Source: Pseudomonas taiwanensis
GTDB taxonomy: Bacteria; Pseudomonadota; Gammaproteobacteria; Pseudomonadales; Pseudomonadaceae
Assembly (NCBI RefSeq): GCF_013393345.1
Contig: NZ_QJRF01000031.1
Location: 62,001 to 126,000, forward strand
Direction of reading: 5' to 3'
DNA: 64,000 bases
Shown one piece after another: positions 5,036-46,071 of the stretch. The translations under genes and the position numbers were made by a program. Under the pieces are notes generated by a model, which was given only the letters and a program-made list of their open reading frames with translations, searched no databases and had not been told where the DNA came from. Position 1 is the stretch's first letter. The number at the start of each line of letters is the position of its first letter.

Positions 5036-5077
5036 CAAGTTCCCCGAACCTTACCCGGCCACTGAATGGACCAGCTC

Positions 5078-6004: not shown

Positions 6005-6047
6005 GTCTCCACGCCTTCTTCATCCCCCTGCACCAAGGAGCAGAACA

Positions 6048-6995: not shown

Positions 6996-7058
6996 CACAG
7001 GCCCGCCGCGGAGCCCCCGCTCCGCGGCGGAGCGCACCTCGCACACCCAGGAAGCACC

Positions 7059-8636: not shown

Positions 8637-8640
8637 CGCC

Positions 8641-9924: not shown

Positions 9925-9947
9925 GCGGGGGGGGCGCCGTGGCGGCG

Positions 9948-18959: not shown

Positions 18960-19066
18960 CGCTCGCCCGTCTGTCCGTAATTTCAATCACGAACCATCCA
19001 AATGACCTGTTCTCATGCGGATTTCAGGCATTCGTGTTGTTTATTTCAAACAAATGCCTTGGCTGA

Positions 19067-19116
19067 GTGAATATTTTTGTGTAAATTTTCATGAAATTTA
19101 TAAATCAAATATTCAC
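19067..19116 (+). promoter_or_regulatory. Nested symmetric operator before the polyamine oxidase gene
   Basis: GTGAATATTT (19067-19076) and AAATATTCAC (19107-19116) form a perfect 10-bp inverted repeat. The palindrome TTTCATGAAA (19087-19096) lies exactly at the same centre, 19091.5. The three blocks are spaced 20 bp centre to centre, and the last ends 9 bp before ATG 19126. The AT-rich stretch stands out in this GC-rich region. It is probably the binding array of a dimeric repressor; the PuuR-like gene two positions downstream is the obvious candidate. Confidence 0.6.
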
Positions 19117-19125
19117 GAGGCACCC

Positions 19126-20415: not shown

Positions 20416-20452
20416 GGTCGCGCCTTTCGAGTCCGGTAGTCGGAGTTCCCAA

Positions 20453-21010: not shown

Positions 21011-21035
21011 AGCCCCAGCTCGCAGGACTGCAGTG

Positions 21036-22388: not shown

Positions 22389-22638
22389 CCCCGGAGTCCC
22401 TGTAGGTTGGGCAGAGCGCAGCGAAGCCCAACATTCGAGGCATCATGCGAGCTTCGCATAGCTCAGCCCAACCTACGTTCTTGGCGAATGAATTCGCCCC
22501 TACAGGGATTGCACCCGGATCGACCCAGGCACAGACAGCCCCCTCTCCCTCTGGGAGAGGGTTGGGGTGAGGGTGTTCGCCGGCCTGCGCGGCGCAAGTC
22601 CATTTCGCGAATGAATTCGCCCCCACAAAAAATCGCCC
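22389..22638. repeat. Intergenic repeat cluster
   Basis: Non-coding, 250 bp. It contains a GTAGGTTGGGCAGAGCG...CCCAACCTAC unit (22402-22476), two GCGAATGAATTCGC palindromes (22484-22497 and 22607-22620) and the hairpin CCCTCTCCC-TCT-GGGAGAGGG (22541-22561) followed by TTGGGGTGAGGG. This is the intact form of the hairpin whose right arm is replaced at 12.6 and 25.9 kb. Confidence 0.75.
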
Positions 22639-23538: not shown

Positions 23539-23648
23539 GGCGGCACCAAACATTGATAGTTGTAGATGCCAAAGTAGAACACTTCATATTTATTCAAAGC
23601 AAAGCTCGGCGCAGCATGGCCCCACCTGCAATCCCCCAGGAGTCCATC

Positions 23649-24731: not shown

Positions 24732-24747
24732 TTGCCCTCTCCCCCAG

Positions 24748-24770
24748 CCCCTCTCCCAGAGGGAGAGGGG
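24748..24770. repeat. CCCCTCTCCC hairpin repeat
   Basis: A perfect 10-bp stem CCCCTCTCCC-AGA-GGGAGAGGGG lies between the binding-protein gene and speB. It ends 10 bp before the speB ATG and could affect translation or stabilise the upstream message. It belongs to a dispersed family with copies at 12367, 22541 and 25783. Confidence 0.75.
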
Positions 24771-24780
24771 ACCCCTACCG

Positions 24781-25755
24781 ATGGAGCCCGATATGGACCA
24801 CGCCTTCGACAACGACCAGGCCATTACCCGCGACAGCCTTTATGGCACCGCTGCCGAATCCACCTACGCCGGCATCACCAGCTTCATGCGCCGCCGCTAT
24901 AGCCGCGACCTGCGCGGTGTGGACCTGGTGGTGAGCGGAGTGCCTTTCGACACTGCCACCACCAATCGACCCGGTAGTCGCTTCGGACCGCGCGCCATTC
25001 GTGCCGCCTCGGTGCAGATGGCCTGGGCGCGGCATTTCCCCTGGGAGTTCGACCCCTTCGATCATCTGGCGGTGATCGACTACGGCGACTGCTCGTTCGA
25101 CCACGGCACGCCCCAGGACACGCCGGAAACCATCCAGGCCCATGCGGCGCGCATCCTCGAATCCGGCGCGGCCATGCTCACCCTGGGCGGCGACCACTTC
25201 ATCAGCTACCCACTGCTGAAGGCCCACGCGGCGAAGCACGGTCCGCTGTCGCTGATCCACTTCGACGCCCACAGCGACACCTGGCCAGACGAAGAGGTCA
25301 AGCGCATCGACCACGGCACCATGTTCTATCACGCCGCCCGCGAGGGCCTGGTGGACCCGGCGCGCTCGGTGCAGGTGGGCCTGCGCACCACCAACGACGA
25401 CGTGATGGGCTTCCAGGTATTGGACGCCCGTGAAGTACACCGCCACAGCCCCGAGCAGATCGCCGAACGCATCCGCGCGCGGGTGGGCGACAACCCCGTG
25501 TACCTGACCTTCGACATCGACTGCCTCGACCCCGCGTTCGCACCCGGCACCGGCACACCGGTATGCGGCGGGCTGTCCAGCCACCAGGCACTGGAAATAC
25601 TCCGCGGCCTGCGCGGCATCAACCTGGTGGGCATGGATGTGGTGGAAGTGGCGCCGCCCTACGACAACGCCGAAGTCACCGCCCTGGCTGGCGCCACCCT
25701 GGCGATGGAGATGGTTTGCCTGTATGCGGCGCGGCATAAGTTGGGGATGCGCTGA
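24781..25755 (+). CDS. speB: Agmatinase
   Basis: Binuclear manganese ureohydrolase of 324 residues that cleaves agmatine to putrescine and urea. All metal-binding motifs are intact: LGGDHFISYP, HFDAHSDTWPDE and TFDIDCLDPAFAPGTGTP, followed by VGMDVVEVAPPYDNAEVTALAGA. The pattern GVPFDTATTNRPGSRFGPRAIR is closer to E. coli SpeB than to guanidinobutyrase, though related guanidino substrates cannot be excluded. Start ATG 24781 or 24793. Its product would feed the oxidase/ligase pair encoded at 19.1-22.4 kb. Confidence 0.87.
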   Translation: MEPDMDHAFDNDQAITRDSLYGTAAESTYAGITSFMRRRYSRDLRGVDLVVSGVPFDTATTNRPGSRFGPRAIRAASVQMAWARHFPWEFDPFDHLAVIDYGDCSFDHGTPQDTPETIQAHAARILESGAAMLTLGGDHFISYPLLKAHAAKHGPLSLIHFDAHSDTWPDEEVKRIDHGTMFYHAAREGLVDPARSVQVGLRTTNDDVMGFQVLDAREVHRHSPEQIAERIRARVGDNPVYLTFDIDCLDPAFAPGTGTPVCGGLSSHQALEILRGLRGINLVGMDVVEVAPPYDNAEVTALAGATLAMEMVCLYAARHKLGMR

Positions 25756-33594: not shown

Positions 33595-34374
33595 TCACTG
33601 AATCAGCTTGCTGACCTCGCCCTGGGGGAAGTAGCTGTCGTAGATCTTCTGGTAGGTGCCGTCGCGGCCGATGTTGACCAGGGACTGGTTGAAGCGGTCA
33701 CGCAGGGCCTCGTTGCCTTTGCGGAAGGCGATGCCGGCGCCTTTGCCGAAGTACTCCTCCTCGTCGTAGCTCGGGCCATTGAAGGCGAAGCCCTTGCCGC
33801 CTTCGCTCTGCAGGAAGTTTTCCTTGAGGTTGATGGCGTCGGCCATCATGGCGTCGACGCGGCCGGAGATCAGGTCCAGGTCGGCTTCCTGTTGCGAGCC
33901 GTACTGCACCATCTGCACACCGCGCGGCACGAGTTTGTCCTGCACGTAGCGGGCGTGAACGCTGCCGCGCAACACAGCCACGCGCAGGCCGTCGAGGGGA
34001 CCCTCGGCAGTGATCTCGGGGCGGTCCTTGCGGGTGACGAAGCGGGCCGGGGTCTTGTAGTAGCTCTGACTGAAATCGACCACCTTGAGACGGACTTCGG
34101 TGACGGTCATCGACGACATGATGGCGTCGATCTTCTTCACCCGCAGCGCCGGGATGAGGCCATCGAAGGGCTGCTCGACCCAGGTGCAGGTGACTTTCAT
34201 CTCCGCGCAGAGCGCGTTGCCAACGTCGATCTCGAAGCCGGCCAGGCTGCCGTCGGCTTTCTTGTAGGAGAAGGGCGGGTAGCTGGCTTCGACGCCGATG
34301 CGCAGGCTGTCCTGGGCCATGGCCTGGGTACCGGCGAGCAGGGCGAGGACGCCGACGAGAATGTGCTTTTTCAT
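33595..34374 (-). CDS. Periplasmic amino acid-type solute-binding protein (family 3)
   Basis: Periplasmic binding protein of 259 residues of the lysine/arginine/ornithine-cystine type. Signal peptide MKKHILVGVLALLAGTQAMA, then DSLRIGVEASYPPFSYKKADGSLAGFEIDVGNALC, with the FDGLIPALRVKKIDAIMSSMTVTEVR hinge region. No cognate permease or ATPase is adjacent. It lies 25 bp downstream of a cytosine deaminase-like gene on the same strand, so it is probably part of the degradative unit and recognises its substrate or a product. ATG 34372-34374 opens on the signal peptide; longer starts do not. Confidence 0.85.
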   Translation of the reverse strand: MKKHILVGVLALLAGTQAMAQDSLRIGVEASYPPFSYKKADGSLAGFEIDVGNALCAEMKVTCTWVEQPFDGLIPALRVKKIDAIMSSMTVTEVRLKVVDFSQSYYKTPARFVTRKDRPEITAEGPLDGLRVAVLRGSVHARYVQDKLVPRGVQMVQYGSQQEADLDLISGRVDAMMADAINLKENFLQSEGGKGFAFNGPSYDEEEYFGKGAGIAFRKGNEALRDRFNQSLVNIGRDGTYQKIYDSYFPQGEVSKLIQ

Positions 34375-34399
34375 GCTGGATGATCTCGGGTGGTTAAGT

Positions 34400-35587
34400 T
34401 CAGAGGGCGAGGAAGTGACCGTCGCGGGCAATCAATCGCCCCTTGCTGATCACGCTGCGGCGGTGGGTTCGGGACACCACGGCTTCGGCGACATTGCGCA
34501 CCGGCAATAGGACGCCGCTGGCATGGCAGCCGGGTTCCAGTCCGTAGTGGGCAAGCCCTAGGGCGCGGGCGCCGTTGACTGTGGCTGCGCGCAGGCAGGC
34601 GACGATTTCCTCGTCGCGGCGCAGGTTGAAGCGGAAGGCCAGGAGCATGGCGCGTTCGAGCATGTCGCCATTGCCCATGGGGGACCAGGCGTCGCGGATG
34701 CCATCGGAGCCGAGGCAGAGGTTCACGCCGCGCGCGTCCAGTTCCAGGTAAGGCGGTACTTCGATATCCGCCGGCGCGGTGCTGACGATGGAAATGCGCT
34801 GCGCCGCCAGGCGTTCGGCAATGGTCTGGAGACTCGCTGGCCGGGCCTGGCCCAGGCAGAAAGCGTGGCTGATCGCGACCCGTCCCTGCAACTGGTGGCG
34901 TTCGGTGAAGTCGATGATGCGCTCGATCTGCCAGAGGCCCAGTTCGCCTTCGTCGTGCAGGTGAATGTCGACGCCGCGCTGGTGAGTGCTGGCCAGTTCG
35001 AACACCCGCGTAAGGTGCGCAATGGGATCGTTGTCGATTCCGCAGGGGTCGAGCCCACCGACGTTCTCCGCCCCCATGAGCAGGGCGTGCTCCAGGGCGT
35101 CGACGGTGCCCGGATCTCGCAGCAGCCCGGTTTGCGGGAAGGCCACGAACTCCATGTCGATCAGGTCGCCGAAGTGTTCGCGTACCCGCAGCATGGCTTC
35201 CAGGTGACGGCTGCCGAGTTGGGCGTCGACGTCCACATGGCAGCGGAAATGCAGCGAGCCGTGGGCGATGCATTCGCGGATCAGCGCACTGGCACGTTCC
35301 TCGATCGGTGTGTCGATACTGCGCAACAGGCTGCGTTCGTTGGCAATGCGCTGGCTCAGGCTGTCGCCGGCGGCGTGGCTGTGCCAGTCCACGCCCCAGA
35401 GGGTCTTGTCGAAGTGGGCGTGGGCCTCCACCAGCGGCGGCAGCATGATCTGCCCGTTGCCTTCCACCAGCACCGATTCGGGGGCGCGTGGCGACGGTGG
35501 GCTCAGTGCGGCGATGCGGCCGTTGTCGACGGCGATATCCACCGCTGCGCCGCCCCATGGGCGGACCTGGGTAATCCATTGGGTCAT
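34400..35587 (-). CDS. Cytosine deaminase-like amidohydrolase (copy A)
   Basis: Metal-dependent hydrolase of 395 residues of the cytosine/isocytosine/creatinine deaminase group, acting in the cytosol on a cyclic C=N or amide substrate. The HxH metal ligands are His56 and His58 (VEAHAHFDKTLWG); further ligands are in VDIHLHDEGELGLW, ISHAFCLG and CLGSDGIRDAWSPMGNGDM. ATG 35587 is used; TTG 35605 would add six residues. It is a paralogue of the gene at 37781-38977 and shares a 75-bp identical stretch with it. Substrate unassigned; cytosine itself is not assured, because the pathway neighbours are not those of pyrimidine salvage. Confidence 0.82.
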   Translation of the reverse strand: MTQWITQVRPWGGAAVDIAVDNGRIAALSPPSPRAPESVLVEGNGQIMLPPLVEAHAHFDKTLWGVDWHSHAAGDSLSQRIANERSLLRSIDTPIEERASALIRECIAHGSLHFRCHVDVDAQLGSRHLEAMLRVREHFGDLIDMEFVAFPQTGLLRDPGTVDALEHALLMGAENVGGLDPCGIDNDPIAHLTRVFELASTHQRGVDIHLHDEGELGLWQIERIIDFTERHQLQGRVAISHAFCLGQARPASLQTIAERLAAQRISIVSTAPADIEVPPYLELDARGVNLCLGSDGIRDAWSPMGNGDMLERAMLLAFRFNLRRDEEIVACLRAATVNGARALGLAHYGLEPGCHASGVLLPVRNVAEAVVSRTHRRSVISKGRLIARDGHFLAL

Positions 35588-35611
35588 CTGGGTGTTCTCG
35601 AACAAAGGGGG

Positions 35612-36274
35612 TCAGCTGGCTGGCGGCCACTGGCGCTCACCGCCGTGGGGGTCGTCGCGCCAGGCCTGCAGGGAACGGGTCGGCAGATCGAAATACTCCC
35701 GCGTGCGGGCATAGCCGTGGCCGCCCATGCGGCCGATGGCGTCCAGGCCGAGCTGGTCGATGTAGAGGGTGGCGGGGTCGATCAGGTCGTCGCGCACGTG
35801 AACCATCAGCACTTCACCGAGGATGATTTCCCGTGACTGGCCGATGGACAGGCCCATCATTCGCCGGCACTCCAGGGCGACCGGAGCTTCGGCGATGTAG
35901 GGGCAGCCGACGCGGCTGCCGGGCAATGCAGTGAGCCCCGCCGCCACCAGTTCGTCGAAGCCCGGTTCGAAGGGCACGGCGCAGACATTCATGGCTTCCA
36001 CCAGGGCATCGTTGACGATGTTCACGGTGAATTCCTGATTCAGCTGGGCATTGCGCGTGGTGTCCTTGGGTCTGAGGTCGGCGTGGTTTTCCACCCCCAG
36101 GGCGAGGATCGGCGGGTCGGCGGACAGCGCGTTGAAGAAGCTGAAGGGCGCAGCGTTGGCGCGGCCTTCGGCGTCCACCGTGGTGACCAGGGCGATGGGC
36201 CGAGGCACCACGCTGCCAATGAGGATCTTGTATTTCTCGCGGGGGCTCAGTTTGGCGAAGTCGAAGCTCAGCAT
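35612..36274 (-). CDS. Flavin reductase-like FMN-binding protein
   Basis: Protein of 220 residues of the flavin reductase/DIM6-NTAB split-barrel family. The signature SVVPRPIALVTTVDAEGRANAAPFSFFNALSADPPIL binds FMN. Such proteins either supply reduced flavin to a monooxygenase or act as oxidoreductases themselves; no monooxygenase is seen nearby. ATG 36274 is chosen because the family domain begins directly there and the upstream frame overlaps the next gene. It lies 4 bp after the stop of the preceding amidohydrolase gene, so the two are translationally close. Confidence 0.8.
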   Translation of the reverse strand: MLSFDFAKLSPREKYKILIGSVVPRPIALVTTVDAEGRANAAPFSFFNALSADPPILALGVENHADLRPKDTTRNAQLNQEFTVNIVNDALVEAMNVCAVPFEPGFDELVAAGLTALPGSRVGCPYIAEAPVALECRRMMGLSIGQSREIILGEVLMVHVRDDLIDPATLYIDQLGLDAIGRMGGHGYARTREYFDLPTRSLQAWRDDPHGGERQWPPAS

Positions 36275-36278
36275 GGCG

Positions 36279-37784
36279 TCATCTCTTGTCGTCGTTCGGG
36301 CTGGCGAGGGTGCAGAGCGGGCGGTCCGCGCTCCAGGCGTCGGCGAAGGGAATCGCCGGCTGGAACAGGGTGCGCCAGTCGGGTTGGCCGAATGCCCGGT
36401 CGGCATGGCTTTGCATCAGCCTGTGGAACTGCCGTTGGGCTTGCTGTTGGAGGCTGGCGTAGTCGACGCCGTTGACCTGGCCGTCCTGCATCACGCAGCG
36501 GCCGTCGATCCAGCTGGCGATGCAGTCGTCGCCGCGGCCGGCGAGGATCAGGTTCTTCAGCGGGTCGAACAGAGGGCCCAGGTGCAGGCCGTCGAGGCTG
36601 AACACGGTGATGTCGGCCTTGCTACCGGGTGCCAGGCGGCCGAGGTCGTCGCGCCCCAGGGCCTTGGCGCCGCCGAGGGTGGCGGCGTTGTAGAGGTCGA
36701 GGGCGGAGGTGCTGGCGCTGCCACCTTCCTTGAGCCGTGCGATGTTCAGGCCCTGGCGCATGTTGTCCAGCAGGTCCGCCGGCCAGGTATCGGTGCCGAG
36801 GGCGAAGTTGACGCCGTGGGCGCGGTAGCGGCCAAAGGAATCGAGTGCCTCGCCGTCACGGGCAAACACCACCGGGCAGTGCACCAGGCTGGCGCCGCTA
36901 TGCGCCAGGCGTGCGAGGTCGTCGTCACCTTCGATGTAGATGCCGTGAGGCAGCACGGCGCGTGGGCCGAGCAGGTCCAGCTCCTCCAGCCAGGCCAGTG
37001 GCGCCTTGCCGCGCATTGCCTTGACCAGGGCGACCTCGCCAGGACCCTGGCAGCAATGCAGGCGCACCGGTGCGGCCAGTTCGCGGCTGAGGGCGGCGGT
37101 GCGTTGCAGTAGCGCCGGGGTGCAGGTCTGGATACGGTCGGGCAGCAGGGCGCCACGGATCAGCCCGCTCTGGGTGCCATCGAAATCGCGGAAGAAGCGC
37201 TCGGCGGCGTCCAGTCCGGCCAGGCCGCGCGCTTCGTCCCAGTGTTCGGCGCGGCTGCCGTCCGCCTGCAGGTACTGCATGCCGCTCATGTAGCAGGGGC
37301 CGAGGTAGGTACGCAGTCCCAACTCGGCGGCGACGCCGGCCACGGCGGCGAATTCGTCGTAGGTTTCCGCCCACTCGCGGTAGTACATGGAGGTGATCGG
37401 CATGGCGGTGGTGATGCCATTGCGGATCAGTTGGGTGAAGGCGTAGCGGTATTTGAAAACTTCTTCGTCGAAGCTGTAGCTCTCTTTCGGCCCGCGGGCG
37501 AGGTACTCCGCCGACCACATGCGGCCCATGGCGTTCTCGTCGCCGTTGTCCAGGCAGAGCACGGTGGAGTCGAGGTCGCCGAGGGCGTCGAGGTCGATGA
37601 AGCCGGGACCGAGCAGGGCATTGCCGTAGTCGATCCACTGGTCCACCGGGCCGGGAAAGCCCCGGCCGACGAAGAGCACGCGCGAGCCTTCGATCACCAC
37701 TTCGCCGTCGCGCCAGAGCACATGACGAGTGCCATCGAAGCCCACCACGCAGCTGGCTTTCAGGCCGATGCGGGGTGCGCTCAC
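36279..37784 (-). CDS. TRZ/ATZ-type amidohydrolase lacking the HxH motif
   Basis: Amidohydrolase-fold protein of 501 residues related to chlorohydrolases and guanine/triazine deaminases. GTG 37784 overlaps the stop of the upstream gene by 4 bp (GTGA), so translation is probably coupled. The N-terminal metal motif normally written GFxDxHxH reads GFIDLDALGD (residues 61-70): the two histidines are Asp66 and Leu68. The later ligands look conserved: His243 (RLHCCQ), His280 (LPHGIYI) and Asp332 (LGTDTWPADLLDNMRQG). The enzyme may bind one metal, as some family members do, or have changed chemistry. The reaction is unknown. Confidence 0.78.
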   Translation of the reverse strand: MSAPRIGLKASCVVGFDGTRHVLWRDGEVVIEGSRVLFVGRGFPGPVDQWIDYGNALLGPGFIDLDALGDLDSTVLCLDNGDENAMGRMWSAEYLARGPKESYSFDEEVFKYRYAFTQLIRNGITTAMPITSMYYREWAETYDEFAAVAGVAAELGLRTYLGPCYMSGMQYLQADGSRAEHWDEARGLAGLDAAERFFRDFDGTQSGLIRGALLPDRIQTCTPALLQRTAALSRELAAPVRLHCCQGPGEVALVKAMRGKAPLAWLEELDLLGPRAVLPHGIYIEGDDDLARLAHSGASLVHCPVVFARDGEALDSFGRYRAHGVNFALGTDTWPADLLDNMRQGLNIARLKEGGSASTSALDLYNAATLGGAKALGRDDLGRLAPGSKADITVFSLDGLHLGPLFDPLKNLILAGRGDDCIASWIDGRCVMQDGQVNGVDYASLQQQAQRQFHRLMQSHADRAFGQPDWRTLFQPAIPFADAWSADRPLCTLASPNDDKR

Positions 37785-38977
37785 AGGCGGCTCTCCAGCA
37801 GGCGGCCCTGGGCGGCGATCAGCTTGCCGGCGCGGTAGACCTGGCGAGGCGGCCGCGTGACCACGGCATCGCCCAGGCTTTGCGCATCCATCAGCAGGAA
37901 GTCCGCAGCGCCGCCGATGACCAGGCCGTGCTCAGCCAGGCCAAGGGCCTTGGCGCCGTGTTGGCTGGCAGCATCGAAGGCGGTGGCCAGTTCTTCGTCC
38001 TTGTTCAGGTCGAAGCGGAAGGCCAGGAGCATGGCGCGTTCGAGCATGTCGCCATTGCCCATGGGGGACCAGGCGTCGCGGATGCCGTCCGAGCCCAGGC
38101 AGAGGTTCACGCCGGCCTCGTGCAGGGCGAGGAAGGGCGGCACGGAGCAGTCGGCGGGCGCCGAACTCATCAGCGAGATGTTCAGCGCGGCGAGGCGTTC
38201 GGCCAGGGGCTTCACCTGGCTCCAGGGCGCCATGCCCAGGCAGTAGGCGTGGCTGATCATCACGCGGCCCTGGCGGTTGAACCGCTCGGTGTAGTCGGCG
38301 ATGCGGGCGATCTGCCAGAGGCCCAGCTCGCCCTTGTCGTGCAGGTGAATGTCGACGCCCCGGTCGAACTCGCTGGCCAGGCCGAAGACGATGTCGAGCT
38401 GGGCGATGGGGTCGTTGTCGATGCCGCAGGGATCGAGTCCGCCGACGTTCTCGACGCCCAGGCCCATGGCTTCGCGCATCAGCTCGGCGGTGCCGGGGCG
38501 GCTGACCAGTCCGGTCTGCGGGAATACCACCAGTTCCAGGTCGATCAGGTCGCGGTAGCGCTCGCGCAGGGCTTGCATGGCCTCCACGTGGCGCAGGCCG
38601 AATTCGGGGTCGATGTCCACGTGGCAGCGCATGGTCAGCGAGCCACGGGCGATGCAATTTTCCAGCAGTGCGCCAGCGCGCTCGGCAATGGGCGCGGTGA
38701 CTTCGCGCAGCACACGGCGCTCGTTGGCGATGTAGTCCTTCAGTGTTGGGCCCGCGCTGTTGGAGCGCCAGGGCTGGCCCCAGAGGGTCTTGTCGAGGTG
38801 GATGTGGCTTTCCACCAGGGCGCAGGTCATCAGCTGGCCGGCACCGTCGATGTCAGCGGCGGCGAGCGGCGCATCACTGGCAGGACGGCGCTCGGCGAAG
38901 CGGCCGTTCTGGATGAGGAAGTCTTCAGCCGCGCCGCCGAAGGGGCGGACGTTGCGCAGCCAGTAGGTGTCGGTCAT
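37781..38977 (-). CDS. Cytosine deaminase-like amidohydrolase (copy B)
   Basis: Hydrolase of 398 residues, paralogous to the 34400-35587 product along its entire length. His58 and His60 (VESHIHLDKTLWG) form the HxH pair; VDIHLHDKGELGLW, ISHAYCLG and CLGSDGIRDAWSPMGNGDM supply the other ligands. ATG 38977 begins MTDTYWLRNVRPFGG. It is the first of five same-strand genes (to 33595) that are close or overlapping. Presence of two copies suggests action on two related ring compounds or successive steps. Confidence 0.82.
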   Translation of the reverse strand: MTDTYWLRNVRPFGGAAEDFLIQNGRFAERRPASDAPLAAADIDGAGQLMTCALVESHIHLDKTLWGQPWRSNSAGPTLKDYIANERRVLREVTAPIAERAGALLENCIARGSLTMRCHVDIDPEFGLRHVEAMQALRERYRDLIDLELVVFPQTGLVSRPGTAELMREAMGLGVENVGGLDPCGIDNDPIAQLDIVFGLASEFDRGVDIHLHDKGELGLWQIARIADYTERFNRQGRVMISHAYCLGMAPWSQVKPLAERLAALNISLMSSAPADCSVPPFLALHEAGVNLCLGSDGIRDAWSPMGNGDMLERAMLLAFRFDLNKDEELATAFDAASQHGAKALGLAEHGLVIGGAADFLLMDAQSLGDAVVTRPPRQVYRAGKLIAAQGRLLESRL

Positions 38978-39156
38978 GGGGACCTCAAAGGCAAAGTGCA
39001 AAGGTTGGGGGACCGCTGCGCGGCCCTTCGCGAATGAATTCGCTCCCACAGGTGGCTCAGTTCGTAGGATGGGTAGAGCGGATCGAAACCCATGCTGCTG
39101 TGCGCGGGGCGATGGGTTTCGCAGGCTCAACCACATCCTACGAATACGGTTCGATG
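38978..39156. repeat. Intergenic repeats
   Basis: Contains GCGAATGAATTCGC (39030-39043) and a unit bounded by CGTAGGATGGGTAGAGCG and its inverse ...CATCCTACG (about 39061-39143), which includes CGAAACCCAT / ATGGGTTTCG. This is another dispersed family seen once here. No gene; the promoter of the deaminase-like operon would have to lie in or next to it. Confidence 0.6.
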
Positions 39157-40209
39157 TCAGCCCTTCAGCTTGGACCAGATGCGGTCCTGCAGTTCGCGGG
39201 CCTGGTTGCTGCATTCCTTCTCCGGGCGCAGGCGTTCGGCGAACTCGTCGGGCATGTTGATGGCGTCCATCACCTTCCACTTCTTGTCCAGCAGCGCATC
39301 GCTGTCGACGCCGTTGGCGTAGGCGATGGAGTTGGACACGGCGGCGGCGTTCTCGGGCTTCATCATCCAGTCGATGAACACCTTGGCGTTGCCCGGGTGT
39401 GGCGCGCTCTTCGGCACGGCGAAGTTGTCCTGGAACATGGCCACGCCTTCACGCGGGTAGACGTACTTGATGGTGCTCTTCTGCAGCGTGGCGCGGGCGG
39501 TTGAGCCGTTCCAGTTCTGCATCATGATCACTTCGCCCGAGGCCATGCGGTCCACGGTGTTGTCGGAGCTGTACATCTTCAGGAAGGGTTTCTGTTTCTG
39601 CAGCAGTTCGAGGATGCGCTTGGCGTCCTGTGGGTTTTCGGTGCACTCGTCCACGCCCAGGTAGTGGCTGGCGGCGTTGATCACGCTGCTCGGGGTATCC
39701 AGCGCGGCGAGCTGACCCTGCAGTTCGGGACGCGGCTCGAAGAACTCCTTCCAGGAGTCATCCAGCTTGCCGCCCGGCACCCTTGCGCTGTCGTAGGAGA
39801 AGCCGGTGGTGCCCCAGAGATAGGGCGCCGAGTACTTGCGGCCGGGGTCGAAGTCGGGGTTGCGGAAGGCTGGCTTCACATGGGCGAAGTTCGGCAGGCT
39901 GGGGGAGTCGATTTCCTGCAGCAGATTCTGCTCGATCAGGGTGCGCATGATGGAGTGGGACGGCACGATCACGTCGTAGGCGGCGCCGCCGGCCTGGAGC
40001 TTGGCCAGCAGGGTCTCGTTGCTGTCGTAGCCATCCATGGTGACCTTGATGCCGGTTTCCTTTTCGAACTTGGCCAGCAGTTCCACCGGGTAGTAGTCGG
40101 TCCAGTTGTAGAAGAACAGCTCCTTGGGCTCGTCCGCCTGGGCGACGGTGGCGGCGAAACAGCTGAGGGCGAATCCGGCTACCCCATGACGCAATGCTTT
40201 CAACTTCAT
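39157..40209 (-). CDS. Polyamine-type ABC transporter periplasmic binding protein
   Basis: Periplasmic protein of 350 residues of the PotD/PotF family. A signal peptide (MKLKALRHGVAGFALSCFAATVAQA) precedes KELFFYNWTDYYPVELLAKFEKETGIKVTMDGYDSNETLLAKL, the family start. It is the last gene of a four-gene importer (ATPase, two permeases, this protein) on the minus strand. A CGGAGAAA site precedes ATG 40209. The ligand is probably a cationic nitrogen compound linked to the neighbouring deaminase-like enzymes. Confidence 0.87.
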   Translation of the reverse strand: MKLKALRHGVAGFALSCFAATVAQADEPKELFFYNWTDYYPVELLAKFEKETGIKVTMDGYDSNETLLAKLQAGGAAYDVIVPSHSIMRTLIEQNLLQEIDSPSLPNFAHVKPAFRNPDFDPGRKYSAPYLWGTTGFSYDSARVPGGKLDDSWKEFFEPRPELQGQLAALDTPSSVINAASHYLGVDECTENPQDAKRILELLQKQKPFLKMYSSDNTVDRMASGEVIMMQNWNGSTARATLQKSTIKYVYPREGVAMFQDNFAVPKSAPHPGNAKVFIDWMMKPENAAAVSNSIAYANGVDSDALLDKKWKVMDAINMPDEFAERLRPEKECSNQARELQDRIWSKLKG

Positions 40210-40257
40210 TGTTTTTCTCCGGGTTGAAGAACAGGTTGGGCAGTGGTGGAACAAGGT

Positions 40258-41049
40258 TCAGGCGGCTGGTTTGCCTCGCTGGCCGAGCCAGTACGAGAGC
40301 ACCACCAGGACGATGGAGATCACCAGCATCAGAGTGGAGATCGCGTTGATCTCCGGCGTTACCCCGGCCTTGATGGCCGAGAAGATGTAGACCGGCAGCG
40401 TCGTCGAGCCGGGGCCCGCGACGAAGAAGGTCATGATGAAGTCGTCCAGGCTGACCACGAACGCCAGCACCGCGCCGGACAGCACCGCCGGGAACAGCAG
40501 CGGCAGGGTGACGCGGCGGAAGGTGTGGAAGGGGTTGGCGTAGAGGTCGTTGGCCGCCTCCAGCAGGCTCTTGTCGAGGTCGTTCAGGCGGGCGCGGATC
40601 GGCAGGTAGGCGAAGGGGATGCAGAAGCCGATATGGGCGACGATCACCGTCAGCAGACCGAGCTTGATACCGAGCGCCATGAACAGCAGCAGCGTGGCCA
40701 CGGCGGTGACGATCTCCGGCAGGATCAGCGGCAGGTTGATCCCGCCTTCCACCATCTTCTGTCCGTAGAACGGCTTGTAGGTGGCCAGCGCCGCCAGCAG
40801 CGCGATGGCGGTGGCGCAGACGGTGGCGATGCCGGCGACGATCACCGAGTTCAGTGCTGCCGCCTGGATCGACGGGTTGGCGAGGATGCGCCCGTACCAG
40901 GCGAAGGAGAACTCGGTCCATACCGTGGCGGTGCGGTTGGCGTTGAAGCTGTAGGCGATCAACACCAGGATCGGCAGGTACAGGTAGGCCAGTACCAGCA
41001 GGCTGGTTTCGCGGGTCAGCGGCAGTTTCTTCAAGTGCGAGGCGATCAT
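40258..41049 (-). CDS. ABC transporter permease (PotC/YdcV-like)
   Basis: Inner-membrane permease of 263 residues with six hydrophobic helices. The cytoplasmic EAA loop (LLEAANDLYANPFHTFRRVTLPLLFPAVLSG) contacts the ATPase. Its ATG overlaps the stop of the preceding permease gene (ATGA at 41049), so the two are translationally coupled. Partner of the 41049-41963 product. Confidence 0.88.
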   Translation of the reverse strand: MIASHLKKLPLTRETSLLVLAYLYLPILVLIAYSFNANRTATVWTEFSFAWYGRILANPSIQAAALNSVIVAGIATVCATAIALLAALATYKPFYGQKMVEGGINLPLILPEIVTAVATLLLFMALGIKLGLLTVIVAHIGFCIPFAYLPIRARLNDLDKSLLEAANDLYANPFHTFRRVTLPLLFPAVLSGAVLAFVVSLDDFIMTFFVAGPGSTTLPVYIFSAIKAGVTPEINAISTLMLVISIVLVVLSYWLGQRGKPAA

Positions 41050-41963
41050 CAGCGGGCTCCCTGGCGAACGGCCTTGGCGGCCTTCTTGGCGTAGAGGGCG
41101 TAAAGCACCAGGGCCAGCAGCATCAGCCCGAGCAGGAGGAAGGACAGTGAGCTGCCCAGCGGCCAGTTCCGTGCGGTGCCGAACTGCTGCTGGATCAGGT
41201 TGCCGATCATCAGGGTCTTGCCGCCGCCGAGGATGGCGGGGGTGATGAAGGCACCGAGGCTCGGCACGAACACCAGCAGGGAACCGGCGACCACGCCTGG
41301 CATCGACAGCGGCAGGATCACCCGGCGCAGGGCCTTCCAGCGGTTGGCGCCGAGGTCATAGGCGGCTTCCACCAGGCGCCAGTCGAGCTTCTCCAGGGTG
41401 GAGTAGATCGGTAGGATCATGAACGGCAGGAAGCTGTAGACCAGCCCGACCACCACGGCGAAATCGTTGTACAGCAGGGTGATGCCGCCGGCCTGCGGGA
41501 ACAGGGCATTGATGCTCTGGGCCAGCCAGCCGTGCTCGCGCAGGATGATCAGCCAGGCGTAGTTGCGGATCAGCAGGTTGGTCCAGAAGGGGATGGTGAT
41601 CAGCAGCACCATGATGTTGCGCGAGCGCTCGCTGAGGCTGCTCATCCACAGGGCCACGGGGAAGCCGACGATAAAGCACAGCAGGGTCGTGCCGCCGGCC
41701 TGCAGCACCGAGCGCAGCAGGGCCTGGGCGTAGACCCAGTTCAGCTCCAGGTTGCCGTCGAAATCTTCCTGGAAGAACAGCTGGATGTAGCTCTGCCACT
41801 GCCAGTTGGCGCTCCAGTCGACTCCGCCGTAAAGGTTGCGTGGCAGCAGGCTGATATAGCCCATGATGCCCAGCGGAATGGCGATCAGGCAGAGCAGGGT
41901 GAGCAGCACCGGCGACAGCAGCAACAGCCGGTTGAGGCTTGGGGAGGTGGCGCTGACGCTCAT
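41049..41963 (-). CDS. ABC transporter permease (PotB/YdcU-like)
   Basis: Inner-membrane permease of 304 residues with six helices. The EAA loop reads LVEAAYDLGANRWKALRRVILPLSMPGVVAG. It starts 1 bp after the ATPase stop and overlaps the next permease, the compact arrangement usual for polyamine importers. Confidence 0.88.
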   Translation of the reverse strand: MSVSATSPSLNRLLLLSPVLLTLLCLIAIPLGIMGYISLLPRNLYGGVDWSANWQWQSYIQLFFQEDFDGNLELNWVYAQALLRSVLQAGGTTLLCFIVGFPVALWMSSLSERSRNIMVLLITIPFWTNLLIRNYAWLIILREHGWLAQSINALFPQAGGITLLYNDFAVVVGLVYSFLPFMILPIYSTLEKLDWRLVEAAYDLGANRWKALRRVILPLSMPGVVAGSLLVFVPSLGAFITPAILGGGKTLMIGNLIQQQFGTARNWPLGSSLSFLLLGLMLLALVLYALYAKKAAKAVRQGAR

Positions 41964-41964
41964 C

Positions 41965-43053
41965 TCAGGCCTCCATCAGCAGGCAAGCGTGGGGCGGCAG
42001 GTGCACGGCCACGGGCGAGCCCACGGGGCGGGAGCTGGTGGCGCCTTCATTGCTCTCGCGCAGCATCACCTTGAGGTCGTTGGCCAGCCGGCACTGGTAG
42101 AGCGTGGCGGTGCCGACGTAGAGCACGGCTTCGACCACGCCGCGCAGGTGGTGCGGCTCGGACGGGTCCACCAGCTTCGAGCGCTCCGGGCGGAAGGCCA
42201 GTTGCGCCTTGCCGCTGTCCAGTCCGTTGGCGGAAGCGCAGGGGATTTCCACCGGCAGTCCTTCAGGCTGGAACAGGTTGCCGTTCTGGGTGCAGCGCTT
42301 GAGGTTGCCGGGGAGGAAGTTGATGTCGCCGATGAAGTGGGCGACGAAGCGGTGCTGCGGGCGTTCGTAGATGTCGTTGGGGGTGCCGATCTGCAGGATC
42401 TTGCCGCTGGACATCACGGCGATGCGGTCGGAGAGGGTCAGCGCTTCTTCCTGGTCGTGGGTGACGAAGATGAAGGTGATGCCGGCTTCCTGCTGAACGC
42501 GCTTGAGCTCCACCTGCATTTCCTTGCGCAGCTTCAGGTCCAACGCGGAAAGGGGTTCGTCCAGCAGCAGCACATCAGGGCGCGGCGCCAGGGCGCGGGC
42601 CAGGGCCACCCGCTGCTGCTGACCGCCAGAAAGCTCGGCGGGGCGACGGCGGGCCAGGTGCTCCATCTGCACCAGGGCCAGCATCTCCTTGACCCGACCG
42701 GGGATGGCGTTGCGCTCCAGCCCCTGCATCTCCAGGCCGAAGGCGATATTCTCGGCCACGCTCATGTGCGGGAAGAGCGCGTAGTTCTGGAACACGGTAT
42801 TGACCCGGCGCTTGTAGGGCGGGAGCTGGTCCACGCGCTGGCCGCCGATCTGGATGGAGCCGGACGTGACCTGCTCGAAACCGGCGATGGAGCGCAGCAG
42901 GGTGGTCTTGCCGCAGCCCGACGGGCCGAGGAGGGTGAAGAACTCGTTGTGGCGGATGCTGACCGAAACATCGTCGAGCGCGGGAGCCACTTCGGGGTCA
43001 TCGGTGTAGCGCTTGCTGACGCGTTGCACCTCGATGGAGGACGTGTGCTTCAT
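41965..43053 (-). CDS. ABC transporter ATP-binding protein (PotA-like)
   Basis: ATPase of 362 residues. Walker A GPSGCGKTT, the Q-loop, signature LSGGQQQRVALARAL, Walker B DVLLLDEPLSALD and the switch histidine in FIFVTHDQEE are all present. The C-terminal part (about 245-362) is a TOBE-type regulatory domain. It is the first gene of the importer, divergent from the GntR regulator across 142 bp that contain two TTGNATGCAA sites. Confidence 0.9.
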   Translation of the reverse strand: MKHTSSIEVQRVSKRYTDDPEVAPALDDVSVSIRHNEFFTLLGPSGCGKTTLLRSIAGFEQVTSGSIQIGGQRVDQLPPYKRRVNTVFQNYALFPHMSVAENIAFGLEMQGLERNAIPGRVKEMLALVQMEHLARRRPAELSGGQQQRVALARALAPRPDVLLLDEPLSALDLKLRKEMQVELKRVQQEAGITFIFVTHDQEEALTLSDRIAVMSSGKILQIGTPNDIYERPQHRFVAHFIGDINFLPGNLKRCTQNGNLFQPEGLPVEIPCASANGLDSGKAQLAFRPERSKLVDPSEPHHLRGVVEAVLYVGTATLYQCRLANDLKVMLRESNEGATSSRPVGSPVAVHLPPHACLLMEA

Positions 43054-43071
43054 AATGGTGCATTCCTCTTG

Positions 43072-43097
43072 TTTTTGTATGCAAAAATTGAATGCAA
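43072..43097. promoter_or_regulatory. Twin TTGNATGCAA sites in the importer/GntR divergent region
   Basis: TTGTATGCAA (43075-43084), inside the wider imperfect palindrome TTTTTG-TATG-CAAAAA (43072-43087), is followed 13 bp on by TTGAATGCAA (43088-43097). FCD-type GntR regulators bind short TTG...CAA palindromes of this kind. The sites lie just upstream of the ATPase ATG (43053), where bound regulator would block the importer promoter. Seen directly; regulator assignment inferred. Confidence 0.55.
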
Positions 43098-43195
43098 TCT
43101 AGAAATACTCGGATTATGCTGACAACGCAACCGGGTTTTTCTGCCTGCTTGTTTCCTGCAGGAGCCGGGTTGCACACGCACTTACGGAGTCACGA

Positions 43196-43885
43196 ATGGC
43201 AGACAAGAAACTGGAAACCACGGTGGACCGCGTCTACCAGGGGGTTTACCAGGCCATCAGCAACCGCTCGCTACGGCCTGGTATGAAACTGGGGGAAGCC
43301 TCCCTGGCGGAGCTGTTCAACGTGAGCCGCACCTCGGTGCGGGCGGCGCTGAAGCAACTGGAGGCCGATGGCCTGGTGTCCTCCGAACCGAACAAGGGCT
43401 GCTGGGTGTCACTGCCCAGCGATGATGAAATCCGCTTGCTGTTCGAAACGCGGCGTCTGATCGAGATCGGCGTTGTCACCGAGCTCTGCCGGCGTCGCGA
43501 CAGCGCGGCCATGCTCGACCTGCGCGAGCACCTGCTACTGGAAGAGGAAGCCCGGCGCAACCATGACCACGAGCGCCTGATCTACCTGCTTGGCGAGTTC
43601 CACATAAAGCTGGCCGAGGCGCTGAACAACCCGGTGCTGCTGGACTGGTTCCGCAAGCTCATCTCGCGCGCCTCGCTCTATGTCGCCGCCCTGGATGACG
43701 AGCGCCATGACGCCTGCCGCGACGACGAGCACCTGCGCCTGATCGAGTTCATCGAGGCCGGCAACCAGAACGCCGCCATCGAGTTGACCTGCTTCCACCT
43801 GGGGGCCATCGAGAACGCCATCGTCGAGTCGGCCGGCAAGCTCAAGGCCAACTACCACCCGCTGAAACACCTGATCGAGACCTGA
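43196..43885 (+). CDS. GntR-family (FCD) transcriptional regulator
   Basis: Regulator of 229 residues. The winged helix-turn-helix (VYQAISNRSLRPGMKLGEASLAELFNVSRTSVRAALKQLEADGLV) is followed by an all-helical FCD domain with candidate metal-binding residues (HIKLAEALNNPVL and a later HLRLIEFIEAGN and FHLGAIENAI). It is divergent from the importer and 8 bp upstream of the racemase gene, which it accompanies in one transcript. It probably represses both directions until a pathway intermediate binds. Confidence 0.87.
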   Translation: MADKKLETTVDRVYQGVYQAISNRSLRPGMKLGEASLAELFNVSRTSVRAALKQLEADGLVSSEPNKGCWVSLPSDDEIRLLFETRRLIEIGVVTELCRRRDSAAMLDLREHLLLEEEARRNHDHERLIYLLGEFHIKLAEALNNPVLLDWFRKLISRASLYVAALDDERHDACRDDEHLRLIEFIEAGNQNAAIELTCFHLGAIENAIVESAGKLKANYHPLKHLIET

Positions 43886-43893
43886 CCTCGGCC

Positions 43894-44631
43894 ATGAAAA
43901 TCCAGCTGATCAACCCGAACACCAGCGTGGCGATGACCTCCGGTATTGCCGAAGCCGCCAGCCACCTGCTGCGCCCCGGCAATCAGTTGCTGGCCGTGAC
44001 CAACAGCGCAGGTCCGGCTTCCATCGAGGGGCATTACGACGAAGCGCTTGCCGTGCCCGGGTTGCTTCAGGCCATTCGCGACGGCGAGCGGGACGGCGCA
44101 GAAGGACACGTGATCGCCTGCTTCGGTGACCCCGGCCTGCTGGCGGCGCGGGAAATCGCACGGTACCCGGTGATCGGCATCGCCGAAGCGGCCATGCACC
44201 TGGCTACCTGGGTCGCCACCGGTTTCAGCGTCGTCACCACGCTTGGCCGCACCAAGGTCATCGCCCGCCACCTGGTGGAGCGCTACGGCTTTCACCAACA
44301 CTGCCGAGGCATCCATGCCGTGGAGATTCCGGTGCTGGCGCTGGATGAAGACCCGGACGGGCTGTTCCGCATCATGCGTGGGGCCTGCCTGGAAGCGCTG
44401 GAGTGCGATGAGTCGGGCGCCATCGTCCTCGGCTGCGCCGGCATGAGCCATCTGGCTGCCGCGCTGCAGGAGGAGATCGGCGTGCCGGTGATCGACGGCG
44501 TCAGCGCTGCGTTGAAGATGGTGGAAATGCTGGGTGAACTGCGGCTTTCCACCAGCAAGCGCGGCGACCTGGACTTTCCCCTGCCCAAGCCTTATGCGGG
44601 TTTTCTGCGGGGGTTTGCGGTCGGCGCTTGA
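43894..44631 (+). CDS. Asp/Glu/hydantoin racemase-family protein
   Basis: Protein of 245 residues of the aspartate/glutamate racemase superfamily, closest in pattern to hydantoin or allantoin racemases (start MKIQLINPNTSVAMT). The two catalytic cysteines are Cys76 (IACFGDPGL) and Cys181 (VLGCAGMSHL). It would racemise a chiral ring compound such as a 5-substituted hydantoin, though no hydantoinase or carbamoylase gene is in the window. Its link to the deaminase-like operon is by shared divergent regulator. Maleate isomerase-like chemistry cannot be excluded. Confidence 0.83.
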   Translation: MKIQLINPNTSVAMTSGIAEAASHLLRPGNQLLAVTNSAGPASIEGHYDEALAVPGLLQAIRDGERDGAEGHVIACFGDPGLLAAREIARYPVIGIAEAAMHLATWVATGFSVVTTLGRTKVIARHLVERYGFHQHCRGIHAVEIPVLALDEDPDGLFRIMRGACLEALECDESGAIVLGCAGMSHLAAALQEEIGVPVIDGVSAALKMVEMLGELRLSTSKRGDLDFPLPKPYAGFLRGFAVGA

Positions 44632-44756: not shown

Positions 44757-44883
44757 CAGGGTGCTGAGGTGAGGCCCTTCCCCTCGACTGCTTATGGCGT
44801 TGTGCATTCCGCTCGTGTTCGGGATTCCACCCCCGGCCGCAACCAAGCCTGCGACGCGGGAGGAGGCAACCGATGCCCCTTGT

Positions 44884-44930
44884 GAGCCGAATAGGAGGGC
44901 TTATTCGGCTCATCAGATGAGCCGAATAAA
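44884..44930. repeat. Triple GAGCCGAATA palindrome
   Basis: GAGCCGAATA (44884-44893), TATTCGGCTC (44902-44911) and GAGCCGAATA (44919-44928) alternate in orientation, so two mutually exclusive hairpins are possible. The stronger has 13-bp arms (TTATTCGGCTCAT / ATGAGCCGAATAA) around a CAG loop. It lies in the 483-bp gap 44632-45114. It may be a dispersed repeat, a terminator for the racemase, or an RNA switch; none is shown. Confidence 0.6.
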
Positions 44931-45044
44931 GAAATTCCAGACGCTGCGGGGTGGGGCGGGACGGACTCAGGCCAGGCTCGCCAAGTGCTCCATGGTCTCC
45001 GGGTACTGTTGCACCACACGAATCAGCGTGGCGGCCTGGGCATT
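44931..45044 (-). pseudogene. Possible decayed antitoxin C-terminus
   Basis: On the minus strand one frame reads THCNAQAATLIRVVQQYP then ETMEHLASL, which resembles the C-terminal helix of XRE-type antitoxins (such as the NadS/HigA group). A stop codon stands immediately upstream in frame, so no helix-turn-helix domain remains, and the frame continues into the palindromic repeat. It is a short relic at best. Confidence 0.25.
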
Positions 45045-45114
45045 GCAGTGCGTCTACGCACCTCACGCAGCCCCGGCTTCCAGCGCTGCAACCACGGTGC
45101 TAGAGTCGCTGCCC

Positions 45115-45498
45115 ATGAAAATCGCCCGCCCTGACCGCTCGCTGATTGCCTGGATGCTCTATGCCTGCGTCCTGTTCAATCTGTTCGCCTGCGGACTGCA
45201 CCACGGGCAGGCGATGGGCCTGGAGTTGAGCGGCCTGGGCGGCGCGTTCTGCTCCGGCCAGTCCAATGCCGGCCCGGGTCTCGATGGCGACCTGGGCGGT
45301 AGCGCCGCCAGTGGTTGGTCCGGCGTTTTCAAATGCCCGTTCTGCGGGACGATCCCTCTGGCAATGGCCGCGCTGTTCGCCCTGGCCTGGCTGTTGGGTG
45401 TTCGCGATGCCCGCCCGAGCACCTTCGAAACGCGGCGCAAGGCGCCCCCGCGCTATCTCTGGCCTTCGGCCAATCCTCGCGCCTCTCCTCTTCGCTGA
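45115..45498 (+). CDS. DUF2946-family protein (copy 1)
   Basis: Small protein of 127 residues. An N-terminal hydrophobic segment (SLIAWMLYACVLFNLFACGLHHGQAMGLELSGLGG) is followed by a CPFCG motif near residue 82 (VFKCPFCGTIPLAMAALFALAWLLG) and a basic, Pro-rich tail. DUF2946 proteins are thought to be membrane or periplasmic and are often found beside copper-related or TonB receptor genes. Metal-binding through the CxxC and a His pair is plausible but unproven. It is nearly identical in its first half to the next gene. Confidence 0.7.
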   Translation: MKIARPDRSLIAWMLYACVLFNLFACGLHHGQAMGLELSGLGGAFCSGQSNAGPGLDGDLGGSAASGWSGVFKCPFCGTIPLAMAALFALAWLLGVRDARPSTFETRRKAPPRYLWPSANPRASPLR

Positions 45499-45687
45499 AT
45501 CCGTCGCCGGTACGCCCGGCTTTGCACTCGACGACCGAATTGCCTCCTGGCCTGACGTACGCGCAGGAATGCTGGATGGCCGGTGCGCACGAGTGTGCGG
45601 TGCGCTGGAAAAGCGCATCTATGCTGAGTCTGAAATCAGCTCGACCAAGGCCCTTCAGGGTCAGCAACATGATGGATGGAACCAGGC

Positions 45688-46071
45688 ATGACTGATTTGG
45701 ATGCCTTCCGACGCAACCGCTCGCTGATTGCCTGGATGCTCTATGCGTGCGTCCTGTTCAATCTGTTCGCCTGCGGTCTGCACCATGGGAAGGCGATGGG
45801 CCTGGAACTGAGCGGCCTGGGTGGTGCGTTCTGCTCAGGCGAATCCAATGCCGGCCCGAGCCTTGATGGCGATCTGGACGGCAGCGCTGCCAGTGGCTTG
45901 TCCGGCATTTTCAAATGCCCCCTGTGCGGGACGATCCCTCTGGCAATGGCCGCGCTCTTCGTGCTGGCTTGGCTGCTGGGTGTGCGCGATGCCCGCCCCA
46001 TATCCTTCGAGCCGCGCAACAAGACTTCACCCCGCCACACCTGGCCCCCCGCCAACCCCCGCGCTCCCTAG
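45688..46071 (+). CDS. DUF2946-family protein (copy 2)
   Basis: Paralogue of the preceding gene, 127 residues, with the same hydrophobic start (SLIAWMLYACVLFNLFACGLHHGKAMGLELSG) and a CPLCG motif. ATG 45688 is chosen because TGGATGGA lies 7 nt upstream; ATG 45676 is an alternative. The nucleotide sequences are close to identical over the first 90 or so codons, pointing to a recent tandem duplication of a unit of about 573 bp. It lies 111 bp before a TonB-dependent receptor and is probably functionally tied to it. Confidence 0.7.
   Translation: MTDLDAFRRNRSLIAWMLYACVLFNLFACGLHHGKAMGLELSGLGGAFCSGESNAGPSLDGDLDGSAASGLSGIFKCPLCGTIPLAMAALFVLAWLLGVRDARPISFEPRNKTSPRHTWPPANPRAP

Follow-up and report, generated by a model that had tools for sequence, protein, structure and literature searches.

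The described systems that come closest to the gene cluster analysed here are the aminohydrolase AtzC, the polyamine importers of the PotABCD and SpuD/SpuE types, the hydantoin utilisation (hyu) clusters, and a racemase of solved structure, 3qvj, which we take to be HpxA of Klebsiella pneumoniae and to act on allantoin. The cluster lies at positions 33595-44631 of a window of 64,000 nucleotides (by which we mean the whole stretch of Pseudomonas taiwanensis DNA that was analysed, positions 62001-126000 of contig NZ_QJRF01000031.1), and the contig is part of a 6.69-Mb genome. We find the cluster to be a widely conserved unit in which an importer is linked to hydrolytic enzymes, and we found no published description of it. 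The initial annotation of this DNA had known of no described pathway with this set of genes, and there is none among the papers listed in the literature that we searched; among the matches listed, from literature mostly outside subscription journals, no paper describes the gene set in its title or the start of its abstract.

AtzC (2qt3, 4cqb) is an N-isopropylammelide isopropylaminohydrolase. The portions of PMC4577212 that deal with its active site give His60, His62, His217 and Asp303 as the zinc ligands and His249, Lys65, Gln160, His219, Asp188, Asn304 and Trp309 as pocket residues; the differences from CodA listed there include His219 (Glu217 in CodA) and Lys65 (Thr66 in CodA), and a table in the same source has the N304A variant still active. 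The substrate scope of AtzC and cytosine deaminase is among the subjects of PMC12828455. The PotABCD and SpuD/SpuE-type polyamine importers are like the cluster's importer in fold and gene order; here, however, the equivalog cut-offs are not reached and one acidic residue of the binding site has been lost. The hyu clusters consist of a D-hydantoinase, a D-carbamoylase and a racemase, of which the window's cluster has the racemase, whereas no hydantoinase passes its cut-off in the window's genome; what hydantoinases do in nature is described as unclear in PMC3546935. The family in which P0004, an amidohydrolase of the cluster, is placed (PRK06151/NF004801, with 715 bits where 416 are required) carries the name 'chlorohydrolase family protein', for which we found no tested function, and PRK06151 is named in no paper of the literature searched.

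Gene content and conservation of the unit

The eleven-gene set proposed in the initial annotation was borne out, each gene lying where it had been placed. HxH denotes the hallmark metal motif of the amidohydrolase superfamily, which in subtype III lies on strand 1.

33595-34374, minus strand: P0001, Lys/Arg/ornithine (LAO)-type binding protein, accessory (TIGR01096 272.6 bits, above the cut-off of 256.35; best solved relative 1lst)
34400-35587, minus strand: P0002, second AtzC-type aminohydrolase, accessory paralogue (PRK05985 501 bits)
35612-36274, minus strand: P0003, flavin-reductase-like protein, core (PF01613 91 bits, cut-off 27)
36279-37784, minus strand: P0004, HxH-less PRK06151 amidohydrolase, core (PRK06151 714.8 bits, above the cut-off of 416)
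37781-38977, minus strand: P0005, AtzC-type, predicted metallo-aminohydrolase, core enzyme (PRK05985 533 bits, cut-off 408)
39157-40209, minus strand: P0006, PotD-fold binding protein, probably not for polyamines (closest solved relatives 3ttl and 3ttm)
40258-41049, minus strand: P0009, PotC-type permease (identified by its place, flanked by potB and potD, and by recurring gene order)
41049-41963, minus strand: P0010, PotB-type permease (PRK09497 PotB 223 bits, below the cut-off of 348)
41965-43053, minus strand: P0011, PotA-type ATPase (ABC_tran and TOBE_2 above cut-off)
43075-43097, minus strand: tandem operator-like palindromes TTGCATTCAA/TTGCATACAA, between gntR and potA (motif matching)
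43196-43885, plus strand: P0007, GntR/FCD-family regulator (PF00392 and PF07729 above cut-off)
43894-44631, plus strand: P0008, Asp/Glu/hydantoin racemase family, hydantoin/allantoin racemase type, accessory (PF01177 192 bits)

Read along the minus strand, the importer genes (potA-B-C-D type) precede the enzyme genes; gntR and the racemase gene are divergent. The last 4 bases of the P0005 gene are also the first 4 of the P0004 gene; further downstream the P0003 gene follows after 4 bases, the P0002 gene after 24 and the P0001 gene after 25. The encoded proteins are 98-100% identical to their counterparts in Pseudomonas sp. BN411 (locus L097).

Scanning contigs with a P0004 alignment gave at least 514 relatives, of which the 80 best were kept, a set in which Pseudomonas is over-represented. 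Its 63 Pseudomonas loci (L026-L086, L096 and L097) include some that end early at a contig edge, at least two of them (L028 and L045) on the racemase side. Neighbouring genes were counted by tblastn, each role being represented by one reference protein or a few. An AtzC-type gene is present in 63/63 of these loci, PotA and PotD in 62/63, a GntR-type gene likewise in 62/63, and a flavin-reductase-like gene in 60/63. Given the first two of these counts, the grouping of the genes is not due to chance.

As a control, 20 loci with an HxH-less gene, one from each of 20 genomes, were each compared with a distant region of the same genome. AtzC-type genes were found in 17 of the loci and none of the control regions, flavin-reductase-like genes in 16 and none, racemase genes in 12 and none, GntR genes in 18 and 1, and Dpp permease genes in 20 and 1. 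PotA-like ATPases occurred in 6 and 5, and are thus uninformative on their own. A separate set of 20 'other' HxH-less loci includes short contigs.

Within the genus, P0004 was found in 12 of the 17 other genomes searched. Neighbourhoods were fetched for 8 of these 12, and all 8 have the racemase, while a P0002-type second copy is present in two, the same two that carry P0001. Copies of P0001 at 98-99% identity are found in L097, L130 and L131. Taking the Pseudomonas loci and the same-genus neighbourhoods together, we define the core as the importer, P0005, P0004, P0003 and the GntR regulator; P0008, P0002 and P0001 are additions to it.

Sought in other genomes, the same neighbourhood recurs across Pseudomonas, and it recurs in other proteobacteria with a swapped importer: alpha- and betaproteobacteria mostly have a Dpp-type importer in place of the Pot type, which is retained in L101, L102 and L194 at 55-65% identity. 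That importer and enzymes remain together across loci agrees with the earlier idea of a degradative unit, linked to an importer, whose substrate is an N-heterocycle or a cyclic ureide. In many Pseudomonas (L028-L086), the core unit is flanked by a uvrA-like/sensor-kinase-like pair and by dnaE2/imuB/lexA-like genes, all named by eye; the flanking families recur in 50, 46, 46, 38 and 35 loci.

AtzC-type enzymes and the HxH-less clade

P0005 and P0002 are 58% identical to each other and both exceed the PRK05985 cut-off of 408 bits. The closest solved relatives of P0005 are 6nbo, which its depositors named N-isopropylammelide isopropylaminohydrolase, and AtzC, a distant relative at 177 bits. Active-site places were transferred from an alignment of P0005 with these solved relatives. 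In an alignment of 30 AtzC-type proteins none of the eleven places varies, and ten hold the same residue as AtzC; P0005 and P0002 thus match AtzC at His60, His62, His217, Asp303, His249, Lys65, Gln160, His219, Asp188 and Trp309. The places of the zinc ligands (H59, H61, H212 and D298, that is, the HxH motif, the strand-5 His and the strand-8 Asp) are conserved in 30/30, as are H214 and K64, which correspond to AtzC His219 and Lys65. The sole mismatch is at Asn304, where all 30 proteins, P0005 and P0002 included, have Gly. The catalytic Glu217 of CodA is absent, with His at its place in 30/30, and the cytosine deaminase models score below cut-off. By alignment, then, the active site of P0005 and P0002 is AtzC-like and not that of CodA, and the 'cytosine-deaminase-like' label that both had been given should on this evidence be dropped. 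By analogy, the cluster enzymes would remove an amine from a ring carbon.

Such an active site could equally be read as that of a natural AtzB/AtzC counterpart in the catabolism of s-triazines, pyrimidines or pterins, acting on an alkylated, aminopyrimidine-like ring without any hydantoin stage. AtzC-like active sites are known on six-membered rings only, models for 8-oxoguanine deaminase and TRZ/ATZ enzymes are among those that P0004 matches below cut-off, and relatives of AtzB act on N2,N2-dimethylguanine according to part of PMC13054789. We nevertheless consider this route unlikely, since it leaves the racemase, and the links to hydantoinase and carbamoylase described below, without a role.

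The most unusual feature of the unit is the clade to which P0004 belongs. The initial annotation had described P0004 as an amidohydrolase without HxH, and this is true of the whole clade: in 91 aligned proteins the motif is absent from 47/47 clade members and present in 44/44 relatives. At the two ligand places P0004 has Asp66 and Leu68; within the clade, place 66 is Asp or Asn and place 68 is Leu or Val. Other residues of the site have been kept, with Asp64, Asp70, Asp72, His243, Gln246, His280 and Asp332 in 47/47 and His302 in 45/47. Three residues beyond the strand-5 His, where the catalytic Glu would stand, all 47 have Gln246. For guanine-deaminase-like relatives, the relevant part of PMC13054789 gives the catalytic set as Asp, His and Glu; in P0004 the Asp (Asp332) and the His (His280) are kept and the Glu has become Gln. 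By a hand count, 18 of the 19 SisHxH and AMH_L021 rows likewise have Gln at this place; in AMH_L104-type relatives it is mostly Glu. Most HxH-bearing sister proteins have Gln at this place too, so Gln246 arose before HxH was lost. Two of these sister proteins score 341 and 329 bits, below the PRK06151 cut-off.

A tree built without the motif columns places the 47 HxH-less proteins on one side of a single branch, with a value of 100 in the Shimodaira-Hasegawa-like approximate likelihood ratio test (SH-aLRT), so that one change accounts for the loss; the tree was made by a quick method under LG+G4, and the program warned of long branches among other groups. The AlphaFold2 model of P0004 has a mean predicted local distance difference test (pLDDT) score of 93.7 and places residues 62-68 on a single strand, so the replaced positions are modelled on a strand, as HxH would be. 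A clade spread over pseudomonads, beta- and alphaproteobacteria has thus lost its superfamily's hallmark metal motif while keeping the rest of the site. Since it mostly co-occurs with an enzyme that has the AtzC active site, it offers a concrete place to seek the natural reaction behind AtzC-type enzymes.

There are two ways to regard P0004. The first is that it is catalytic, with a rebuilt site; the second is that it is a non-catalytic partner, which binds the substrate or stabilises a hetero-oligomer with P0005, and which would be compatible with any substrate proposed. The second is quite possible, though we lean against it. Loss of HxH and possession of Gln246 in 47/47 speak for a non-catalytic partner, as do the 4-base overlap of the P0005 and P0004 genes and the company of an AtzC-type gene in every Pseudomonas locus and in 17/20 matched loci. 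On the other hand, the invariance of Asp64, Asp70, Asp72, His243, His280 and Asp332 goes beyond what a dead fold would need, and the protein occurs without an AtzC-type gene in L094, L099, L178 and L213. A composite active site made up of P0004 and a third amidohydrolase (AMH3) was also considered; the alignment proved to be shifted around the strand-5 His of AMH3, and we dropped the claim. AMH3 itself (L017:10464-11894 and relatives) keeps HxH, and several members apparently lack the strand-5 His and have TQDG instead, in an uncertain alignment.

Other neighbourhoods of HxH-less genes vary. At L094:9992-12950 the gene stands after an amino-acid permease gene and directly before one for homospermidine synthase (720 bits to 4plp); L099 ends inside a gene that by eye resembles this synthase, and both loci come from metagenome bins. 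In L104, L185, L186 and L214, HxH-less genes lie near Rieske oxygenases of the glycine-betaine monooxygenase type, hinting at N-methylated compounds; the match in L104 (410 bits) is below the cut-off of 670, and that in L214 is at 27% identity.

Importer specificity and regulation

The initial annotation had called the importer polyamine-type. Its full PotABCD-type set and its fold stand. The specificity probably does not, and the polyamine label should be given up: neither PotB nor PotD reaches its equivalog cut-off, P0006 scoring 184 bits against 582 in the NCBIfam PotD model. The polyamine-binding proteins 3ttm, 3ttl and 7xjm have a Glu in common whose place is taken by Ser175 in P0006, and by Ser in 72/75 PotD-type relatives (P0006 included), while Asp261 is kept in 75/75. 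We take 3ttl to be SpuE and 3ttm to be SpuD, and presume that the Glu and Asp places hold the amine ends of the polyamine. From these residues the ligand of P0006 is likely to have one cationic end, and the importer appears to be polyamine-type by fold only, with polyamine transport unlikely.

It would therefore be very surprising if the unit were a genuine polyamine importer beside unrelated enzyme genes. Such an arrangement would suit the PotD-type fold of P0006 and the homospermidine synthase beside the HxH-less gene in L094, but not the missed cut-offs or the replacement of the polyamine Glu. It would also leave unexplained that importer and enzymes stay together in 62/63 Pseudomonas loci, that other lineages use a Dpp-type importer, and that no operator-like match lies upstream of the enzyme genes. 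Elsewhere in the window, at 18959-25755 and so some 8-15 kb away, genes resembling by eye those of putrescine catabolism (for an oxidoreductase, a cupin-type regulator, a glutamine-synthetase-like protein and a PotF-like binding protein) form a separate, likely polyamine locus.

Between gntR and potA we found the putative operator pair. TTGCATACAA, picked as the commonest 10-mer, is present in 48/50 gntR-potA intergenic regions, namely that of the window and those of the 49 Pseudomonas loci, out of 63, that were left after filtering by length and order. With up to one mismatch allowed, the window has no matches other than TTGCATTCAA and TTGCATACAA, a number that does not exceed the 2.8 expected by chance for the single motif, and no match lies ahead of the enzyme genes. 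The tandem pattern had been defined on the window when the 6.69-Mb genome was searched with it; the pair is unique there, and the reversed control gave 0. An operator-like pair at this position, with no site before the enzyme genes, fits a single regulated unit. Importer and enzymes had been supposed to act as one unit, and this is upheld by their joint presence in 62/63 Pseudomonas loci and by the one putative operator pair that they have in common.

Hydantoin and allantoin links and a proposed function

Among solved structures P0008 is closest to 3qvj ('putative hydantoin racemase'), with 293 bits across residues 2-238, nearly the full length; 5lfd, an allantoin racemase, is third. P0008 has paired Cys motifs, at Cys76 and Cys181, presumably the catalytic pair. 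The earlier assignment to a racemase-like enzyme thus holds as to family; as a part of the unit, the racemase is accessory, being present in 12/20 matched loci and only 3/63 Pseudomonas loci. The best solved relative of P0003 is 4z85, a 2-nitrobenzoate nitroreductase.

Associations with hydantoin enzymes come from other loci. On one strand of L213 there follow a family-5 binding protein, a racemase, an HxH-less protein (51% identical to P0004), an N-carbamoyl-D-amino-acid hydrolase and a second racemase, with a D-hydantoinase gene convergent to the run. The D-hydantoinase and the D-carbamoylase are identified by their L128 copies, to which they are 69% and 64% identical, and the genome is rated 70% complete. 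Further along are a creatininase-family open reading frame (123 bits, below the cut-off of 235) and one whose start resembles, by eye, an ATP-dependent hydantoinase. Such a run hints at a hydantoin-class intermediate. A hyu-like trio also accompanies a sister-group gene in L128, where an HxH-bearing relative of P0004 lies near genes for a D-hydantoinase (PRK13404 781 bits, cut-off 647), an N-carbamoyl-D-amino-acid hydrolase (393 bits to 8i99), a flavin-reductase-like protein and a racemase; in L126 the two hydrolases are accompanied by a flavin-reductase-like gene, and there is no racemase match. Across the HxH-bearing sister group, D-carbamoylase is found in 3/19 loci and D-hydantoinase in 2/19.

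Our proposal from this set of results is a GntR-linked uptake and hydrolysis unit that converts an amino-substituted cyclic amidine to a cyclic ureide of the hydantoin class. We put it forward tentatively, as a reading that falls a little short of probable. The PotABCD-type importer would take up a small, singly cationic N-heterocycle with an amino or alkylamino group on a ring carbon, for which a 2-aminoimidazolone of the creatinine or hydroimidazolone type is a candidate. P0005, probably with zinc, and its paralogue P0002 would cleave the C-N bond at the ring by hydrolysis, so that the amine leaves, a carbonyl takes its place and the ring becomes the cyclic ureide. P0003 could carry out flavin-dependent redox chemistry, either on the compound or on what is formed from it. 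P0004 would act on the next intermediate with a rebuilt site, either Asp-based or metal-free, or would partner P0005, and the racemase, where present, would epimerise the cyclic ureide. The initial annotation's guess at a substrate was reasonable in class; creatinine and isocytosine as such are guesses. Histamine and creatinine routes were set aside on general grounds, no search having been aimed at them.

Several observations weigh against this proposal. In the locus itself, potD lies 179 bases from the first of the enzyme genes (a terminator scan found no site in this gap, and 5 in the whole region against 7.1 in shuffles), and the window's genome has neither a D-hydantoinase (TIGR02033; best 82 bits, cut-off 393) nor an ATP-dependent hydantoinase/HyuA (PF01968; best 21.6, cut-off 22.9) above cut-off, so that a hydantoin could not be opened there by those enzymes. 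Among relatives, 3/75 PotD-type proteins keep the polyamine-type Glu, 3/63 Pseudomonas loci lack the flavin-reductase-like gene, and no racemase was seen in 60/63, a few of which end early. L094 and L099 have the HxH-less gene beside a permease and without an AtzC-type gene, which is also missing from L178 and L213, and L213 shows no flavin-reductase-like gene either. Finally, D-hydantoinase and D-carbamoylase occur in just 1/20 'other' HxH-less loci, 0/20 matched loci and 0/63 Pseudomonas loci.

The window's genome does encode two PuuE-type allantoinases above cut-off and one TIGR01879 amidase, which passes one allantoate-amidohydrolase model. With allantoinases and no hydantoinase in the genome, the racemase may serve allantoin in this species, or the ring may be opened by an enzyme of the cluster itself. 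The former would make the unit a branch of purine breakdown, in which the deaminase acts on an amino- or imino-purine product (iminoallantoin/guanidinohydantoin or an alkylated oxopurine), followed by allantoin racemase, a PuuE-type allantoinase and allantoate amidohydrolase. Apart from these genes and the relatives of P0008, a purine branch could draw on a guanine-deaminase-like gene in 3/20 matched loci, on NCS1 transporters (L017 and L193) for which allantoin permease is the closest of the specificity models, though below cut-off, and on L023 (Sinorhizobium meliloti pSymA), where the gene next after the HxH-less one encodes an allantoinase (TIGR03178 527 bits, cut-off 358). The GntR-racemase pair can also be likened to hpxSA, although the window's cluster, in contrast to HpxA, has no allantoinase among its genes. 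Against a purine branch, the 60 Pseudomonas loci without a visible racemase carry the core all the same, and a D-carbamoylase beside the HxH-less gene of L213 does not suit allantoate. We regard the purine branch as improbable.

Returning to the cyclic amidine proposal, one more specific form of it is that the unit degrades arginine-derived hydroimidazolones, glycation products of which MG-H1 and G-H1 are examples, an AtzC-type cut of the exocyclic C-N bond yielding ornithine and a 5-substituted hydantoin, with P0004 catalytic through an aspartate-built metal site or none. This version is a long shot; if true, it would give a natural role to the hydantoin racemase, D-hydantoinase and D-carbamoylase of the relatives. 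Two further pathways were compared and rejected. The cytochrome P450, thiamine pyrophosphate-dependent decarboxylase, xanthine oxidase-like and Rieske enzymes described for riboflavin/lumichrome catabolism in the relevant part of PMC12746152 do not match the set, and for ergothioneine the NCBIfam ErtD and ErtE models match only neighbours or other genes, below cut-off.

Two other regions of the window may be mentioned. At 3998-10415 are genes that by eye resemble those of hydroxyproline/D-amino-acid catabolism (an LDH-like reductase, a proline-racemase-like epimerase, a flavin adenine dinucleotide (FAD) oxidase and an Lrp regulator). At 44794-46071, just beyond the racemase gene, the open reading frames 44794-45498 and 45676-46071 share a stretch beginning RSLIAWMLYACVLFNLFACGLHHG, and appear to be a short duplicated gene for a membrane-protein-like product.

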